DNA from: an uncultured Clostridia bacterium
Lineage (GTDB): Bacteria; Bacillota; Clostridia; UBA1381
NCBI GenBank assembly: GCA_947628155.1
Contig: CANQYQ010000003.1
Span: forward strand, 1-49,537
DNA length: 49,537 bases
Reading direction: 5' to 3'
Below the pieces are notes generated by a model. That model saw only the letters and a program-made list of their open reading frames with translations. It made no database searches and was not told the origin of the DNA. The position numbers and the translations under genes were made by a program. Shown here piece after piece: positions 3,754 through 33,273 of this stretch (positions are counted from its first letter, which is position 1; every line of letters starts with the position of its first letter).

Positions 3754-6144
3754 TCATTCCTGACCCGGGGTAACGTCTCCCGTTTCGCCCTCGGTATTTT
3801 CTCCGCCTGATTCACCGGATTCACCGGAATCCTCGCCGCCGCCTTCACCGACTTCGGAATCGCCGGGACCTTCGCTACCGCCTTCGCCGCTGGGATTTGA
3901 CCGGAACGTAATATTCATCGGATCAAGATACGGTATTAATTTGCTGTCATTCCATGCGTATGCCTTAACTGTCGTTGTACCGTCGTTATAAACAACGTTA
4001 TCCTCCGCCGTAAGATTAAACGTTCCGTCGGCGCTTTCGCGTACAGCCGTAAGCACATCGTTCTCGTATACCGCGAGTATGTACGAGGGCGCTTCTTGAT
4101 ATTTGGGGTCAAAACCGTTTACTCCCATCGTCAGTGTACCGATAAGCAGATCGCCTGTCGGACTCATAGTACCGCTTCTGTGCCAGCCTGCGTTCGCCGT
4201 CTTAACATACAGCGTCATATCCTCCGTAATGGGTGTATTAAAATCCCACGCGGTTTCGCCTGCCTCGTCCGCCGTCCAGCCGGTGATAACATGACCGTAC
4301 TTGTAATATTCCGGAATTATAACCGGGTAATTATACGGAACATATAGCTCATCCGCCTTTTTATCGCCGTCCATAAATGTAACCACGCGCGTTTCAAGCG
4401 CAAGCAACTCCTGTTGCTCCGGTGTGCCAAAATCTATGCCGTATGTATTGCCCTCGTACTTAGTGGAAATAGTGGTGTTCAGTTCATATTTCAGTATCGA
4501 GCCAACAACGGATATTCCGTGAATACCTTTTACGCCATATCTTTCTCTTCCGTCACTGTCGGGTGTCAACTCAATCTCCATTCTGTCCATGTGATAAATA
4601 GACTCGACTATGGGTGTGCCGCCAAGCTCTATTCTGTATATATCCGTCTGCGAATTGAAATACAGATATTTTTCCCCGCTTTCGGAATAGATATATTTGC
4701 CTATACCACCATAATAGCCGTCATGGCGGGGAAAGGAAAATCCGTTTTTCGTCCGCCCAATCCAAATGCCGTCGGGTATTTTACAATATTCTGTTTTGTT
4801 CTCAAGATTTGCTCCAAGCTTAAATATGGCAGTATACGCTTCATCGTTACCCGCCTGAACAGGCACAATATCCACGTAATAGCGGTTATTGCCGTCAAAT
4901 ATAACCGGGGTATTGACGTCGCCGCTGCTCCATATTCTGTAAATCTGCGGTTCCGGAGGCTGTGTCTCGCCCGTATCCGGGCCTTGTTCACCGCCGTCTC
5001 CGCCGGATTCTTCTCCGCCTTGTTCACCGCCGTCTCCGCCGGATTCCTCCCCGCCTTCACCTTCCTGCGGCGGTATTATTATTTCTTCATAATGCCCATG
5101 CCAGCTTTTGTTTGCGTATTCGCTGCCGATATTGACTTCACCAAAGCCTTTGTCGGTTATAAAACCGTCCTTATGCGTTCCGCCTTGTAACAGCTCTTCA
5201 TCATTAACAAGAAAATACTCATGCGATACTTTGCCGAGTATATCGTTATCGTCCTGCGTAGTGTCAACGTAATACCAGCCGCCGCCTATTTTGACCGCCG
5301 ACCATTCATGCTGCTCGGTATTACTGTAAACGTTAATACAATCAACATTTACCTTTGAAAGCAGGTATTTATATGATAACGAATACCCCTGGCAAACAGT
5401 CAATCCGTCGAGCAATCCCGCGTCAAGAGTACGCTTTACCATGGCCTGGTCCTCTTCGCCGCCCTCCGCGCGCCAATCATATTTGATATTATTTATAATA
5501 TAATCATGCAGCCAGAGCGCCTTGTCAAAATCATCCTGCTCAGTGTACCCTTCATCGCCCGATTTTCCGTCGGCATTTATTCCGTCCGACTCCATTGCGG
5601 CTTTAATTTCCGCAACCTTGTTATCTATTTGCTCTTGGATCCTTACAATTTCATCAGCGCTGTAAAAATACGGAAGCAAGAATGAATACAAATTATTTTC
5701 AAATGTTCTGTACGAGTACCTGTTTCCAAAATAAAAATACGTCGGGTCATCCGATATAATATTCTCCACGATTCCCCATGCCGCGTTCATTTCATCGGAA
5801 ATATTGCCCTGCTCATCGGAAACATTTACGGTATATTCCTCAGGTATAACGATTTCAAGATAACGAGTTCCGTCATTTTCTACAATATGCTCATCCTGTT
5901 TGGCAAGAGCTTCCGCCGCGGCATTATTTATCGCCTCAATTGCTTCCGGCGAAAGACCGCTGTCCGTAATGCCCTCGATCGGCATTGACATAAGCTCGAT
6001 ATCGTCATTATCCTGCGGCTGCTCGGCAGTCAGTATCACTTTTGCGCTGTCGGATCCATAAATATCCTCATCCGCATATGATACCTCTGCCGCCGACGCA
6101 AAAATCATAACTGCTGATATGATTGTACATAAAAGCTTTTTCAT
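3754..6144 (-). CDS. Secreted transglutaminase-like domain protein with low-complexity Gly/Glu linker and bacterial-repeat-type C-terminal region
   Basis: Signal peptide; GLTVCQGYSLSYKYLL ... EHEWSAVKIGGGWYYVDTTQDD transglutaminase-core pattern; Gly/Glu linker; ITGWTADEAGETAWDFNTPITEDMTLYVK resembles InlB/Listeria-Bacteroides repeats. Confidence 0.8.
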   Translation of the reverse strand: MKKLLCTIISAVMIFASAAEVSYADEDIYGSDSAKVILTAEQPQDNDDIELMSMPIEGITDSGLSPEAIEAINNAAAEALAKQDEHIVENDGTRYLEIVIPEEYTVNVSDEQGNISDEMNAAWGIVENIISDDPTYFYFGNRYSYRTFENNLYSFLLPYFYSADEIVRIQEQIDNKVAEIKAAMESDGINADGKSGDEGYTEQDDFDKALWLHDYIINNIKYDWRAEGGEEDQAMVKRTLDAGLLDGLTVCQGYSLSYKYLLSKVNVDCINVYSNTEQHEWSAVKIGGGWYYVDTTQDDNDILGKVSHEYFLVNDEELLQGGTHKDGFITDKGFGEVNIGSEYANKSWHGHYEEIIIPPQEGEGGEESGGDGGEQGGEESGGDGGEQGPDTGETQPPEPQIYRIWSSGDVNTPVIFDGNNRYYVDIVPVQAGNDEAYTAIFKLGANLENKTEYCKIPDGIWIGRTKNGFSFPRHDGYYGGIGKYIYSESGEKYLYFNSQTDIYRIELGGTPIVESIYHMDRMEIELTPDSDGRERYGVKGIHGISVVGSILKYELNTTISTKYEGNTYGIDFGTPEQQELLALETRVVTFMDGDKKADELYVPYNYPVIIPEYYKYGHVITGWTADEAGETAWDFNTPITEDMTLYVKTANAGWHRSGTMSPTGDLLIGTLTMGVNGFDPKYQEAPSYILAVYENDVLTAVRESADGTFNLTAEDNVVYNDGTTTVKAYAWNDSKLIPYLDPMNITFRSNPSGEGGSEGPGDSEVGEGGGEDSGESGESGGENTEGETGDVTPGQE
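4981..5052 (-). repeat. Two tandem 36-bp units encoding GGEESGGDGGEQ in the linker of the transglutaminase-like protein
   Basis: gccttgttcaccgccgtctccgccggattcttctcc repeated in tandem with a few mismatches. Confidence 0.85.
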
Positions 6145-6268
6145 GTAAGTTCCTCCTTAATTAACGCACATAAATATTATTTTTTATGCATACGCGATAA
6201 ATATTATACATCAATCTAATATTAAAGTCAATAATAAAACTACAGTATTGCGCAAAATAAATTGAGTA

Positions 6269-6297
6269 TTGACAATACAGGTAAACGGTGCTATAAT
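6269..6297 (+). promoter_or_regulatory. Consensus sigma-A promoter of the nifS operon
   Basis: TTGACA-17 nt-TATAAT. Confidence 0.85.
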
Positions 6298-6325
6298 ACC
6301 AATTAACCTACAAGGTTGATAGGTA
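6297..6325 (+). promoter_or_regulatory. Operator-like palindrome overlapping the nifS transcription start
   Basis: TACCAATTAACCT-ACA-AGGTTGATAGGTA; 11 of 13 arm positions are complementary. Confidence 0.65.
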
Positions 6326-6356
6326 ATAGATAAAATTACGAAAAGAGGCATAAATT

Positions 6357-7550
6357 ATGAAGATATACGCGGATAACGCGGCGACGACAAAGACAAGCCG
6401 CACTGCGATAGAGGCGATGCTGCCGTATTTCGACAAAATCTACGGTAATCCGTCAAGTCTGCACACGCCCGGACAGGAGGCGGCGGAAGCGCTCCTTGAC
6501 GCGAGGGAGAGAGCCGCGAAAAATTTAGGCTGCTTCCCCGATGAGATTTATTTTACCTCCGGCGGCAGCGAGGCGGATAATCAGGCAATTATATCGGCGG
6601 CGCGAATCGGTGAAAAAAAGGGTAAAAAGCATATAATTTCAACGGCGTTTGAGCATCACGCGGTGCTGCACACGCTTGACAAGCTTGAAAAGGAGGGCTT
6701 TGAAATAACGCTGCTCGACGTGTCGAATGACGGCGGCGTTATAACGCCGGAGCAGGTTGAATCGGCTATCCGACCCGACACGTGCCTTGTCACTATAATG
6801 TACGCGAACAATGAGATAGGCACTGTTGAGCCGATCGGCGAGATAGGCAAATTATGCCGTGAAAAGAAAATACTGTTCCATACCGACGCGGTTCAGGCGG
6901 TAGGTCATCTTAACATTAACGTCAAGGATGAAAATATTGATATGCTTTCACTGTCCGGCCACAAATTCCGAGGCCCTAAGGGCGTTGGCGCCCTGTATGC
7001 GCGGCGCGGGATAAAGCTCACGAATATAATCGAGGGCGGCGCGCAGGAGCGCGGCAAGCGCGCGGGTACGCACAATATGCCGGCTATTATGGGCATGGCG
7101 GCGGCAATGGACGAGGCGTGCGCAAATATTGACGCTAACGCGGAAAAGACTGTAAAAATGCGTGACAAGCTTATCGCGGGACTTTCGGAAATACCTCATT
7201 CAATTCTAAACGGCCACCCGACAAAGCGTCTGCCCGGCAATGTAAGCTTCTGCTTCGAAGGCATAGAGGGTGAATCTCTGCTGTTATTGCTCGACAGCAA
7301 AGGAATATACGCGTCCTCCGGCTCAGCCTGCACATCAGGCTCGCTCGACCCGAGCCACGTTCTTCTGGCGATAGGCCGCCCACACGCGATAGCTCACGGC
7401 TCGCTTAGATTATCGATCGACCATGAAACAACGGACGAAGAGGTTGAATATATCATAAACGGCGTAAAAGAAGTAGTAGAATATTTAAGAAATATGTCGC
7501 CTGTTTGGAGCGATTTACAGAAAGGAAAGAGAGAATATGTTATACAGTGA
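6357..7550 (+). CDS. nifS: Cysteine desulfurase
   Basis: MKIYADNAATTKTS, SGHKFRGPKGVGALY, SSGSACTSGSLDPSHV. Confidence 0.96.
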   Translation: MKIYADNAATTKTSRTAIEAMLPYFDKIYGNPSSLHTPGQEAAEALLDARERAAKNLGCFPDEIYFTSGGSEADNQAIISAARIGEKKGKKHIISTAFEHHAVLHTLDKLEKEGFEITLLDVSNDGGVITPEQVESAIRPDTCLVTIMYANNEIGTVEPIGEIGKLCREKKILFHTDAVQAVGHLNINVKDENIDMLSLSGHKFRGPKGVGALYARRGIKLTNIIEGGAQERGKRAGTHNMPAIMGMAAAMDEACANIDANAEKTVKMRDKLIAGLSEIPHSILNGHPTKRLPGNVSFCFEGIEGESLLLLLDSKGIYASSGSACTSGSLDPSHVLLAIGRPHAIAHGSLRLSIDHETTDEEVEYIINGVKEVVEYLRNMSPVWSDLQKGKREYVIQ

Positions 7551-22959: not shown

Positions 22960-24018
22960 CTAACCTGCGATACTGTCATATATATCCTCTACATACCTGT
23001 CATATATTGTTTCATACGTTTTATCATAATGAAATTCGAATCCGCGTATAATGGAACTATCGACATGGAAATATGCGTAATGGCAGTATCCGCTTGAATC
23101 ATTCGTACTCAAAGCGCACCAGTTATTGCCGCTGTTTTCGTAATCCACATATCCGGGATAATCGGATTTAAAATTACTTAAAATATTCGCGATAGATAAA
23201 TTTGAAGAATTTGCTTTCGCGCATATTTTAAGCCGCGCCGTTCCGTCCGGAGCTTTTACGGAATATCTTACGAACGAATCACTGTCGTTATACTCTTCAA
23301 AATGAGAGGGATAATAACATGAAAATCCGAAGTAAGAATCATGATAGATACTGTAAGACGGATCATATACAGCGCCTTTTGAAGATGTATTTGTATTATT
23401 TGACGAGGTTCCTCCGGTATAATTACCGCTGTATGATTGCTGTGTATTTACGGGCGGTGTTTTTGACAAATATGATTGTAGTGTATATCCGGTCTCTCCA
23501 TCGTAAACAATTTTCGCAAACCCGTCCTGAGCAGTCTCCGCAAAGCTTACCGGCGCGCCTAAGGGTATGGTTTTTAAAACAGTCGCGGTGTTTGACGGCG
23601 CGCTGCGCAGCGGTATTGTCTGCTTACAGTTTGCGACATAATATGTTTCCATTATCGCATTATTCTGATTTGCGGCGGCCGCGGTCTGAGCCGCGCCGGT
23701 GTCCGGAGTCGGGGAGGCTGCCGCGGATGACGTTAATATATTATTACCACTGTAGTTGGAAATGGTGTATATAAATATTCCTACCGCCGCCGCCGCGAAC
23801 ACGATAGATAATATTACCGCCAGTATCATGCCTTTATGACCCGGTTCTTTTTTATTGTTCCTGTATATATCGGCAACACTCTTGTTCCACTCCTCATTTT
23901 CCGGAACAATGCTTTGCTGTACGTATTCCTTTTGAGTATTGTTGGTTACCGGCATACAGCAATTTTCACAAAATTGCGCATCGTCCGGTATATAAACCCC
24001 ACAATGTTTGCATATCAT
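22960..24018 (-). CDS. Zinc-ribbon, single-TM protein with SH3b-like domain
   Basis: MICKHCGVYIPDDAQFCENC zinc ribbon; hydrophobic TM MILAVILSIVFAAAAVGIFIYTI; IPLRSAPSNTATVLKTIPLGAPVSFAE SH3b pattern. Confidence 0.82.
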   Translation of the reverse strand: MICKHCGVYIPDDAQFCENCCMPVTNNTQKEYVQQSIVPENEEWNKSVADIYRNNKKEPGHKGMILAVILSIVFAAAAVGIFIYTISNYSGNNILTSSAAASPTPDTGAAQTAAAANQNNAIMETYYVANCKQTIPLRSAPSNTATVLKTIPLGAPVSFAETAQDGFAKIVYDGETGYTLQSYLSKTPPVNTQQSYSGNYTGGTSSNNTNTSSKGAVYDPSYSIYHDSYFGFSCYYPSHFEEYNDSDSFVRYSVKAPDGTARLKICAKANSSNLSIANILSNFKSDYPGYVDYENSGNNWCALSTNDSSGYCHYAYFHVDSSIIRGFEFHYDKTYETIYDRYVEDIYDSIAG

Positions 24019-24338
24019 AGCTTTTCTCCTTATATTTTTAGGTTGCTTAATATCCGCTGGCTTGTCCGATTTTATATATTATTTACATTTTCATAAATAT
24101 ATCTCATAATAAATATAACATATATCGACCGTTAAGTCAATGATATACGGTTTTATTTTACAATAAAAGGAATATAATTACAGATTTATGTAAAATGCAC
24201 AAAATCAATTGATTATTTTATATGATAAAAAGAATAAAAAAATCTTCGTCATTATTGTAAAAGGGCGATATTTATGATAAAATGATTTTGACGGTGATAA
24301 ATTCGCAAAATGATATATGGAACAAGGAGATGATAATA

Positions 24339-26024
24339 ATGAATTTTTGTACAAAATGCGGAAACGCGCTTGCCGCCGGAGAATCCTTTTGCACGAAATG
24401 CGGCGCGCCGTTTTCAAGTGCCGGTAACGGTATAATGGGCCCGTCTGCCGGACTGCCGTATACACCCGGCCCGGTGAAAAAAAGGGGACATAAAAAAATA
24501 ATCATACCGCTGGTGGTTTTAATTGTTTTGGCGCTGGGTGCGGGTACTGTATTTGGATTCCCGTATGTTAAAACCGCTGTGACAAAGATGATAATGCCGC
24601 CGGAAAAGTATTTCAATAATGTTGTTGATAATAGTATTAATAATTTTTCAAAAAGAATTTCGGCGTTTACCGAGAACGTAAAGGAAAGAAATGCGCCAAA
24701 TCAGAGCTTTACAAATTCGATTGACATTTCTCTCGGTGATCAGTTTGTGAGCTATATCGATGATCTTATGGACTTGGATCTGGCCTCCGAAAGAGAATAT
24801 ATTGACTGGATAAAAAGCATACGGATCGATGCGACTCAGAATATCGACGATTCAAACTTAGATTTAAAAACTATGCTGTCTATCAATAACAGTAATATTA
24901 TGTCCTGCAACAGTCTGATGAATTTTGACAGCGGGAATGTATATTTTACCATTCCCGATATAAATCCTACAGCGTTAATGGTAAATTTAAATGATGAGGG
25001 AATTTATGATGATGATTTTAGTATAGATAAATATTATAAAATGTTTAATTCAATTCCCGATAAGGATGTTGTCGAAGATTTAATTCATGATTATGTTATG
25101 ACGGCCGTGGATGAAATACAGGTTGTTGATAAGCAGCGCGAGGATATCAGCGTGGGAACAAAAACGCAGAGCTGTACCGCGCTTACCGCGCAAATAGATA
25201 CGCAAACGTATCAGAATATGATAAGAGCGGTCCTGAGCAAAGCAAAGGACGACGCCGTATTGATGAATGTAATACAATCGTTCGCCTATCAGCTGGGTAT
25301 TGATCAACATGAGGTATACAACGAATTTGTTTCCGGAATAGATGATATCCTTCAAAATGAAATAGATTACTATACTGTGGACGGAACTGCTGCCGTAAAG
25401 CTGTTGGTTAACGGCAAGGGCGGCTTGGTAGGTGTGATCATAAACGAAGGAACCGATCAATTTAAATTTGTTAATATAGTTGACAAAACCGCTAACGAGG
25501 CTGAATTGTCAATGCAGATCGACGGCGAGTCCTTGGCGGTCAACGGCGGCGGAGGACTTAAAGGTACAAAATATGACGGCAAATACACCTTAAGCTATAA
25601 TAACGGGGATGTAATATCGTTTAGCGTATCGGATGTAAACGCGCTTAAATTAAAGGATGGCTATTTTGAAGGTACGATAATGATAGATGCCGGTGCATAT
25701 GCGAAGAATGAGCTGAGCTCTGACGATTTGGGAATGCTCGCGGATTCTCAGTTGAGATATACGATTTCCGAATCAAGCAAGGATAAAACCGATGGGTCCA
25801 TAGCTTTGGTTTATAACGGCAGTGATATAATTACCTTTAACACGAGTCTTGAAAAAACCGCGGGATGTACTGTTGACCCGATCCCGGCAAGTTACATACC
25901 CTGTGACGATGATAGTGCTGTTGAATCCTGGTACATGAGCGGCAATTATAATGTTCTGCTTGATAATCTTGAGGCGGCCGGCGCAAACGGCAACTGGTTT
26001 GCACCGCTGCGCAGCGGGTTATGA
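24339..26024 (+). CDS. Zinc-ribbon, single-TM protein of unknown function
   Basis: MNFCTKCGNALAAGESFCTKCGAPF zinc ribbon followed by TM IIIPLVVLIVLALGAGTVFGF and a large extracytoplasmic region. Confidence 0.8.
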   Translation: MNFCTKCGNALAAGESFCTKCGAPFSSAGNGIMGPSAGLPYTPGPVKKRGHKKIIIPLVVLIVLALGAGTVFGFPYVKTAVTKMIMPPEKYFNNVVDNSINNFSKRISAFTENVKERNAPNQSFTNSIDISLGDQFVSYIDDLMDLDLASEREYIDWIKSIRIDATQNIDDSNLDLKTMLSINNSNIMSCNSLMNFDSGNVYFTIPDINPTALMVNLNDEGIYDDDFSIDKYYKMFNSIPDKDVVEDLIHDYVMTAVDEIQVVDKQREDISVGTKTQSCTALTAQIDTQTYQNMIRAVLSKAKDDAVLMNVIQSFAYQLGIDQHEVYNEFVSGIDDILQNEIDYYTVDGTAAVKLLVNGKGGLVGVIINEGTDQFKFVNIVDKTANEAELSMQIDGESLAVNGGGGLKGTKYDGKYTLSYNNGDVISFSVSDVNALKLKDGYFEGTIMIDAGAYAKNELSSDDLGMLADSQLRYTISESSKDKTDGSIALVYNGSDIITFNTSLEKTAGCTVDPIPASYIPCDDDSAVESWYMSGNYNVLLDNLEAAGANGNWFAPLRSGL

Positions 26025-26041
26025 TAATTATTCTTAAATAT

Positions 26042-26067
26042 AAAAAGACCGTTAACGGTCTTTTTAT
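26042..26067 (+). terminator. Rho-independent terminator
   Basis: AAAAAGACCGTTAACGGTCTTTTT. Confidence 0.85.
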
Positions 26068-26183
26068 ATTTAGAGACAATAACTTGACTTTAAGAAAAAA
26101 CTTTTGTATACTAAAGTAACACTTTACGGATATAAGCATAGACTAATATAAAATGTATCGGAGTGATTTATTTGGACAGTAAG
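26059..26183 (+). repeat. 125-bp direct repeat, copy 1 (CDF promoter, leader and first four codons)
   Basis: Identical to 26913-27037 except one mismatch (26072 a / 26926 g); offset 854 bp. Confidence 0.95.
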
Positions 26184-26334
26184 TTCCTCTAAATCACATA
26201 CTTTACCACAGTTGCTGCTGCAATAAATACAACGCTTGTTACATTACAGTGTTAATTCTAAAAATAGATTTCCCAGCGGTAATTTATCTATGATTGACGC
26301 CCTGTATTCTGATAACTGCCGTAAATGCTCTTTT

Positions 26335-26715
26335 TTACTGATTGCTTATATATTTTTTATATTGTTTGTGAGCCTTATAAAATTCCCTGACTGCACATAT
26401 TCCAAATATCAACCCCAAATATCCGACAGGTTTCTCATATTGCACGGTCATTATTATGAAGTTAAATGCCCCGTATATCAAAAACAGTATTGCACAAATT
26501 CTGCTTTTTCCTATATGTATCCCCAAAGAAAATCCTGCAATCATGATCACATCAATAATTCCGGCCGGGTTCATGAATATAGAGATAATCAAGTTGATAG
26601 CTGCTAATACATATCCTATTATTCCAACGCTATTTATTTCCTTTTTTATTTTTGGATCTACAATTTCATTAACAAATTTTCTGAATGAAACTTGAGTATT
26701 GTCCACTTTAATCAT
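26335..26715 (-). CDS. Small membrane protein of unknown function
   Basis: 126 aa, several hydrophobic segments; SD-like taggagg immediately upstream (a GTG start at codon 4 is better spaced). Confidence 0.65.
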   Translation of the reverse strand: MIKVDNTQVSFRKFVNEIVDPKIKKEINSVGIIGYVLAAINLIISIFMNPAGIIDVIMIAGFSLGIHIGKSRICAILFLIYGAFNFIIMTVQYEKPVGYLGLIFGICAVREFYKAHKQYKKYISNQ

Positions 26716-26912
26716 TCCTCCTACCTGATTTCAAAAGTATTCTTTGGCCATTACCGGATAAAACCTATCACCGCTCTTTAAAGCCACAGACTACAAATAG
26801 AAAATTCTACCATTATTTATAAGATTTTACAATACAATGTTTAACATTTTATATAATCTAAATATATAATAACATATATTTTTGAAAATGCAATACTTAT
26901 TATAAAATATTT

Positions 26913-27037
26913 TCTTTTTATATTTGGAGACAATAACTTGACTTTAAGAAAAAACTTTTGTATACTAAAGTAACACTTTACGGATATAAGCATAGACTAA
27001 TATAAAATGTATCGGAGTGATTTATTTGGACAGTAAG
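26913..27037 (+). repeat. 125-bp direct repeat, copy 2 (native 5' region of the CDF gene)
   Basis: Matches 26059-26183; contains TTGACT-17 nt-TATACT (26938-26966) and TAAAGT-AAC-ACTTTA dyad. Confidence 0.95.
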
Positions 27038-27925
27038 AAGGATATTACAAACCGAATCTCGGTTATAAGTATAGTAATAAACGTAATATTGTCGGTATTA
27101 AAATTCGCGGCGGGAATCTTTGCGCATTCGAGCGCGATGATTTCGGACTCCGTGCATTCGCTGTCGGATGTATTAAGTACGTTTGCCGTCATAGCGGGTG
27201 TGAATTTATCGGAAAAGCGCAGTGACAGTGACCACCCGTACGGGCATGAGCGGCTTGAAAGTATATTTTCGATAATTTTAGCCGGTATGCTGTTCGCGAC
27301 GGGTATAGGAATAGGCTATGCGGGAGTAAAGGGTATAATTTTCGGTACATACAGCGAACCCGGAATGTTTGCGCTTATCGCCGCGGCGGCATCGATCGTG
27401 ATCAAGGAATTGATGTACAGGTATACTATGGCCGCGGCAAAAAAGGTTAATTCCACCGCGCTTAAAGCCGACGCGTGGCACCATCGTTCCGACGCGCTTT
27501 CGTCGGTAGGCGCGTTTATAGGCATCATTGGCGCGATGCTCGGGTTCCCCGTATGCGACCCGATTGCGAGTGTCATAATATGCTTCTTTATTTTAAAAGC
27601 GGCGTGGGATATTTTCGCGGAGGCGGCGAATCAGCTTGTTGACCGCGCGTGCGATGAAGAAACGCAGGAGCGTCTTCGCCGGGTGGTAGAATGTCAGGAC
27701 GGCGTTTTGTGCGTGGATTTACTGCGAACGAGGCTGTTCGGTTCGCGTATGTATGTCGATGTTGAAATAGGCGCGGACGGTATGCTCCCGCTTTATAAGT
27801 CGCATGAGATAGCCGAACGGGTGCATAATGAGATCGAACGCGAATTTCCTGATGTAAAGCATTGCATGGTTCATGTGAATCCAAAAAGCATTGATGATTT
27901 TACGGAAAATAATGAGAATTATTGA
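27026..27925 (+). CDS. Cation diffusion facilitator family transporter
   Basis: AHSSAMISDSVHSLSDVLSTF, HPYGHERLESI, ADAWHHRSDALSSVGAFIG; probable TTG start at 27026 (GTG 27017 also possible). Confidence 0.95.
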   Translation: MDSKKDITNRISVISIVINVILSVLKFAAGIFAHSSAMISDSVHSLSDVLSTFAVIAGVNLSEKRSDSDHPYGHERLESIFSIILAGMLFATGIGIGYAGVKGIIFGTYSEPGMFALIAAAASIVIKELMYRYTMAAAKKVNSTALKADAWHHRSDALSSVGAFIGIIGAMLGFPVCDPIASVIICFFILKAAWDIFAEAANQLVDRACDEETQERLRRVVECQDGVLCVDLLRTRLFGSRMYVDVEIGADGMLPLYKSHEIAERVHNEIEREFPDVKHCMVHVNPKSIDDFTENNENY

Positions 27926-31936: not shown

Positions 31937-32038
31937 TTTTTATCACCCGCCGAACCGCGTTTGGGCGCGCGGACTGATTTAATATTCCGCTGCCGGAAAA
32001 ATACCGCGTTTTGTGTGACATATTTGATCATCGATTAC

Positions 32039-32066
32039 TTGACATTATCAAAAAACGGACTATAAT
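32039..32066 (+). promoter_or_regulatory. Consensus promoter of the His-rich CobW gene
   Basis: TTGACA-16 nt-TATAAT. Confidence 0.75.
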
Positions 32067-32085
32067 ATATTTTAAGCGAACATCT

Positions 32086-32141
32086 GAGACAATACCGCGC
32101 AAATATCGGCGCTTTGCGCGGTCCCCGCGCGGTATCGTCTT
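32086..32141 (+). promoter_or_regulatory. Structured 5' leader hairpin upstream of the CobW gene
   Basis: gagacaataccgcgc (32086-32100) pairs with gcgcggtatcgtctt (32127-32141) at 13 of 15 Watson-Crick positions; inner GCGC-TTT-GCGC. Confidence 0.6.
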
Positions 32142-32169
32142 AAAAATTTTTATAAGGACAGTGATTCAC

Positions 32170-33273
32170 ATGACAAAAATTGACATTTTTTCGGGTTTTT
32201 TGGGCGCGGGTAAAACTACGCTTATAAAGAAGCTTATAAGCGAGGCCTTCGCGGGCGAAAAGCTGGTGCTTATTGAAAATGAATTTGGCGAAATAGGAAT
32301 TGACGGCGGCTTTTTGCAGGACGCGGGCATTGAGATCACCGAAATGAATTCCGGCTGCATTTGCTGTTCGCTCGTTGGCGATTTCAGCAAAGCTCTCGTG
32401 CAGGTTGTCGAGCGGTTTTCGCCGGACAGGATTTTAATCGAGCCGTCGGGCGTCGGTAAATTGAGCGACGTGATCCGCGCGGTTCAAGGCGTCGGCGGCA
32501 ATTTGGAGCTTAACAGCTTTACGACCGTCGCGGACGTTAACAAATGCAAAATGTATATCGAGAATTTTGGCGAGTTTTATAAGGATCAGATCGAACACGC
32601 CAACTGCGTGATTTTAAGCCATACGACAAACGCGCCGGAAAAGAAGGTAAAGGATTGCGTTGCTCTTTTGCGCGGGATGAACTCCGACGCGGCGATCATT
32701 ACCACGCCGTGGGAGAAGCTTGACGGCAGGCAGATGCTTGAGGCTATGGAAAAAACAGACACGCTCGAAGCGGAGTTAAAGCGTCTTGAGGAGGAGGATG
32801 TCTGCCCCGTATGCGGTCATCATCATGAGCACGGCGAGCATGAGCACGAACACGAGCATGAACATGACCATGAGCATGAACATCATCACGAGCATGAGCA
32901 CGAACACGAGCATGAGCATGAGCACGAGCATCATCACGAGCACGAGCATGAGCATGAACATCATCACGGCCACCATCATCATCACCATCACGCGGACGAC
33001 GTGTTCACAAGCTGGGGCAGGGAGACAACAAACAAATACACCGCCGATGAGATCAAGACAATTCTCGACGGTCTTAACGACAAGGAAAAATACGGCACGG
33101 TGCTCCGCGCGAAGGGCATTGTCGAGGGTGAGAACGGCGAATGGATCCACTTTGATTATGTTCCGGGCGAGAGCGACGTCCGCACAGGACGCGCGGGTGT
33201 TATCGGCAGACTTTGCGTAATCGGCGCCGAGCTTAACGAATCGGCCGTTTCCGCGGCGTTTAAAACGGAATAA
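32170..33273 (+). CDS. CobW/CobP47K-family GTPase with His/Glu-rich metal-binding tract
   Basis: FLGAGKTTLIKK Walker A, SGCICCSLVGDF CxCC motif, EPSGVGKL; HEHEHEHE tract; start at ATG 32170. Confidence 0.94.
   Translation: MTKIDIFSGFLGAGKTTLIKKLISEAFAGEKLVLIENEFGEIGIDGGFLQDAGIEITEMNSGCICCSLVGDFSKALVQVVERFSPDRILIEPSGVGKLSDVIRAVQGVGGNLELNSFTTVADVNKCKMYIENFGEFYKDQIEHANCVILSHTTNAPEKKVKDCVALLRGMNSDAAIITTPWEKLDGRQMLEAMEKTDTLEAELKRLEEEDVCPVCGHHHEHGEHEHEHEHEHDHEHEHHHEHEHEHEHEHEHEHHHEHEHEHEHHHGHHHHHHHADDVFTSWGRETTNKYTADEIKTILDGLNDKEKYGTVLRAKGIVEGENGEWIHFDYVPGESDVRTGRAGVIGRLCVIGAELNESAVSAAFKTE
32817..32995 (+). repeat. (CAY GAR)n low-complexity tract encoding His/Glu repeats
   Basis: Tandem catgagcac-type hexamers. 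Confidence 0.9.

Follow-up and report, generated by a model that had tools for sequence, protein, structure and literature searches.

A 125-bp direct duplication of a CDF transporter promoter around a small membrane-protein gene in an uncultured Clostridia bacterium looks like a DNA-integration scar

The window analysed here, a whole contig of 49,537 nucleotides, belongs to the draft assembly of an uncultured Clostridia bacterium (2.46 Mb in 238 contigs, 86% complete). On its plus strand, a gene at positions 24282-26024 encodes a 580-aa protein with an N-terminal zinc ribbon (Pfam PF13240, E 1.2e-6) and forms the left native neighbour of a duplicated segment. It is followed by a 38-bp perfect palindrome (26035-26072), predicted to fold into a terminator-like hairpin (-20.6 kcal/mol, z -7.3), which is probably the terminator of this gene. 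On the right, also on the plus strand, lies an intact gene with a TTG start (27026-27925) for a cation diffusion facilitator (CDF) transporter. Its product includes the cation efflux membrane domain PF01545 (E 3.2e-49) and the C-terminal dimerisation domain PF16916, scores above the cut-off of TIGR01297 (E 8.5e-71), and has its nearest named relatives in Clostridia, mostly metagenome-derived. Near the CDF gene, an ORF at 32011-33273, named by eye as a CobW-like GTPase, contains a long His/Glu-rich repeat (HEHEH), and the CDF gene with these CobW-like surroundings possibly constitutes a metal-handling neighbourhood. The 580-aa protein gene itself is one of two divergent genes for proteins with a zinc ribbon and, after it, a hydrophobic segment (22960-24018, minus strand, and 24282-26024, plus strand) that directly precede the altered region.

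Positions 26059-26183 (copy 1) and 26913-27037 (copy 2) form a direct repeat on the plus strand, offset by 854 bp and matching at 124 of 125 positions. The sole mismatch is A26072 in copy 1 versus G26926 in copy 2, and the final 111 bp are fully identical. Each copy starts with half of the terminator hairpin and continues with features read from the sequence: a putative strong promoter, TTGACT-17-TATACT (26084-26112 and 26938-26966), a TAAAGT-AAC-ACTTTA dyad right after the -10 box and over the expected transcription start (26112-26126 in copy 1), a putative GGAG Shine-Dalgarno sequence, and TTG GAC AGT AAG, the first four CDF codons. In copy 1 this frame runs into TTC CTC TAA and would give the six-codon peptide MDSKFL; after copy 2 it runs on into the full CDF ORF, so that copy 2 carries the promoter of the intact gene. 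The 729 bp between the copies (26184-26912) hold, on the minus strand, an ORF for a 126-aa membrane protein (26335-26715). An earlier note on this DNA had described the near-identical duplication, the promoter, dyad and Shine-Dalgarno readings, the abortive peptide ahead of copy 2 with its intact transporter, and the antisense gene in some 730 bp of intervening DNA, and our analysis recovered all of them at the same positions. No known RNA, riboswitches included, was found in the promoter region, and the promoter sequence had no match in viral contigs.

To judge how rare such a repeat is, we used a sample of 445 kb, made up of the window plus 395 kb from 20 further stretches of this assembly. 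No second non-tandem pair with spacing within 20 kb approached this length and identity; the remaining pairs were short, tandem, coding or dispersed small repeats. The 125-bp pair is therefore far beyond chance. Among the other repeats of this assembly, three short ones with a CCCCTTGT-AAAGGGG-like core (L023, 19649-19709; L024, 17564-17662; L026, 5046-5158) resemble small non-autonomous elements. L039 includes an array of 69-bp coding-like tandem repeats (6136-6578).

Both ends of the repeat are cut pieces of native features, a terminator half on the left and CDF codon 4 on the right. The left end lies inside the palindrome, the longest perfect one in the 445 kb sample, with copy 1 starting 5 bases beyond its centre. 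The palindrome is whole beside copy 1 only; copy 2 keeps the right half, which is predicted to fold weakly (-3.4 kcal/mol). Correspondingly, the CDF frame continues after copy 2 only. Since the native left neighbour adjoins copy 1 and the native right neighbour adjoins copy 2, the ancestral order was gene, terminator, promoter and CDF, and removal of one repeat together with the insert leaves this native locus, as reconstructed from one genome. The cut terminator half thus makes the ancestral order legible without a second genome. Replication is known to stall at palindromes, and DNA to break there (PMC7999016). The position of the repeat end within this palindrome hints only weakly that it caused the break: if the duplication had to preserve the CDF promoter and leave the upstream gene intact, its left end could fall only within about 60 bp, 38 of which are palindrome.

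The inserted DNA differs from its surroundings in composition. Its GC content is 0.303, compared to a mean of 0.49 (sd 0.048) for 729-bp windows of the sample, about 0.1% of which are as low, and the ORF within it has 31.5% GC, a value equally low in 0.5% of 216 long ORFs. Low GC is also common in intergenic DNA and in some membrane-protein genes. The search for positions 26184-26912 elsewhere, which had been proposed along with the original description, was run within the assembly (86% complete) and returned this single site only. Neither a transposase nor an integrase nor terminal inverted repeats were found at the insert. Relatives of its gene were absent from 69 other genomes of the family, four other genomes of the genus among them, and from viral contigs, species-level genome contigs and plasmids, and of 390 other genomes sampled from the whole class, 8 had distant ones (27-38% identity). 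We infer that the insert is probably foreign, horizontally acquired DNA.

The hydropathy profile of the 126-aa protein points to three or more membrane segments; its relatives in Clostridia are distant and occupy unrelated genomic contexts. The better ones (L011, L012, L013 and L016) are larger and share its hydrophobic C-terminal region; their zinc ribbon is N-terminal or internal. Two short ones (L014 and L015) are without a zinc ribbon. These two homologues come from two single-contig genomes of one genus and lie near an ORF named by eye as glutamate-synthase-like. A zinc ribbon occurs in five of the seven relatives examined, including the one on MT835682.1 (L135), a record labelled 'Bacteriophage sp.'. 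We rejected this record as a phage relative: its neighbouring ORFs resemble, by eye, 2-isopropylmalate synthase and a sodium:solute symporter, and it is probably mislabelled bacterial DNA. The zinc-ribbon membrane proteins of Clostridia share the hydrophobic C-terminal region with the insert protein (23-34% identical over the alignment) and usually possess an N-terminal zinc ribbon, whereas the insert protein does not; none was detected in its ORF, nor in any reading frame of the insert's upstream part. Zinc ribbons are usual in relatives of the inserted gene and also occur in the products of the two genes upstream. A phylum-wide profile search returned mainly zinc-ribbon matches, uninformative on the membrane part. 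At the furthest reading that the data allow, the product may be a putative membrane accessory protein.

Base composition, absence from the 69 family genomes and cut native features at the repeat ends together argue for an insertion. We favour, with a probability of roughly 0.7, a one-off additive integration in which a 729-bp AT-rich, probably acquired fragment entered the locus and duplicated 125 bp of its target in the same event. The fragment, with one small membrane-protein gene, would have come to lie between the zinc-ribbon gene and its CDF neighbour; the duplicated target would have extended from half of the terminator through CDF codon 4. Two routes could have led there. The foreign fragment and part of the CDF promoter region may have been ligated into a circle that integrated by a single crossover, or a replication template switch, or the fill-in of a staggered break, may have taken place beside the terminator palindrome. 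Both would predict the same sequence, which by itself does not separate them. The locus has the appearance of an ordinary scar of DNA integration, fairly recent in origin, rather than of a new type of mobile element.

This interpretation retains part of what the earlier note had proposed. Its recent insertion stands as an insertion with duplication of the CDF promoter, borne out by composition, restricted distribution and cut ends, and its recency is probable. The capture of a circle by single crossover is possible and has a parallel in E. coli (PMC3240628), and shares its predicted outcome with template switching and fill-in. A duplication followed by insertion is unlikely: had the tandem duplication come first, the later insertion would have had to hit the exact repeat junction. 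Because the edges of the insert coincide to the base with those of the repeat, a single event that inserted and duplicated at once is much simpler.

Other explanations of the locus were weighed against this one. The promoter-insert-promoter order could have been created during assembly, from strain variants or a chimeric join, and be present in no actual cell. A draft in 238 contigs at 86% completeness is open to this, as are the 111 exact repeat bases, which fall into the k-mer range prone to such assembler errors. However, both junctions lead back to the same locus, the region is free of Ns, no other such structure exists in the 445 kb, and a false path would still require reads behind both unusual junctions, making an assembly artefact unlikely. 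An ancient insertion whose promoter copies were kept alike by gene conversion, a process open to direct repeats at this spacing of 854 bp, would agree with the intact ORF of the insert. We consider it rather improbable, given that the gene is missing from the four other genomes of the genus and the rest of the family and that the unneeded half-terminator and the dead start codons are near-identical between the copies as well. No conspecific genome was found among those of the genus and family, and the genus relatives, with CDF genes of about 68-70% nucleotide identity, have other neighbourhoods without synteny, so that no empty site was observed.

Long direct repeats enclose the insert as a clean unit of one gene, and their recombination could restore the empty locus. 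This arrangement also brings to mind a small mobile element in its own right, either a cassette or a transposable unit, whose target duplication would be unusually long, or else a module that excises as a switch. The missing transposase, integrase and terminal inverted repeats and the single copy speak against it, and so does the lack of relatives in viral contigs and plasmids, with the lone 'phage' match in bacterial-looking DNA. Relatives of the gene lie in unrelated contexts, and among 81 related CDF loci we found no promoter duplicated in a comparable way. A mobile unit of this type is thus very improbable. A 42-bp repeat upstream of the CDF gene in L003 was considered as a recurrent duplication and discarded, as it looks like an unrelated dispersed repeat. 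The boldest version, in which the 729 bp form a minimal gene cassette, so far unrecognised, that inserts into promoters while duplicating about 125 bp of its target and can leave via repeat recombination, seems far-fetched; if true, it would amount to a reversible promoter architecture.

Under the preferred one-off integration, neither neighbour appears to have been broken: we call it additive because the upstream gene retains its terminator and the CDF gene its full promoter. Copy 1 would remain as an orphan promoter directed antisense across the inserted gene, and its transcripts would perhaps run on into the CDF gene, since no terminator-like site was detected, although the same scan also failed to pick up the evident hairpin at 26035 and its negative result therefore counts for little. 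If the two copies recombined, the locus would return to its original state and an 854-bp circle would be set free. Read in this way, the locus is a legible example of a single small gene gained next to a functioning one, with no harm to the latter and no mobile-element machinery involved.

Compared to known systems, the locus shares with transposon insertion accompanied by target-site duplication the direct repeats around new DNA. However, a transposase or terminal inverted repeats would be expected there, and neither these nor a second insertion site in the 86% complete assembly were found here; usual target-site duplications are also far shorter than 125 bp. With homology-facilitated illegitimate recombination it has in common the gain of foreign DNA without mobile-element functions, but that process joins DNA through one homologous and one illegitimate junction with an expected chromosomal deletion (PMC3240628), whereas here the target was duplicated and apparently nothing was lost. 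In structure, the locus resembles Campbell-type single-crossover integration of a ligated, non-replicating circle, which likewise leaves a direct chromosomal duplication flanking an insert with arbitrary ends, and the added DNA described here does lie between two near-identical direct chromosomal copies. In contrast to the E. coli events, the present one is natural, and a promoter fragment in its donor would have to be supposed. In those events, observed at lacZ, linear DNA was ligated to circles that integrated by single crossover, and the reported flanking duplications of 109-950 bp include the 125 bp seen here (PMC3240628).
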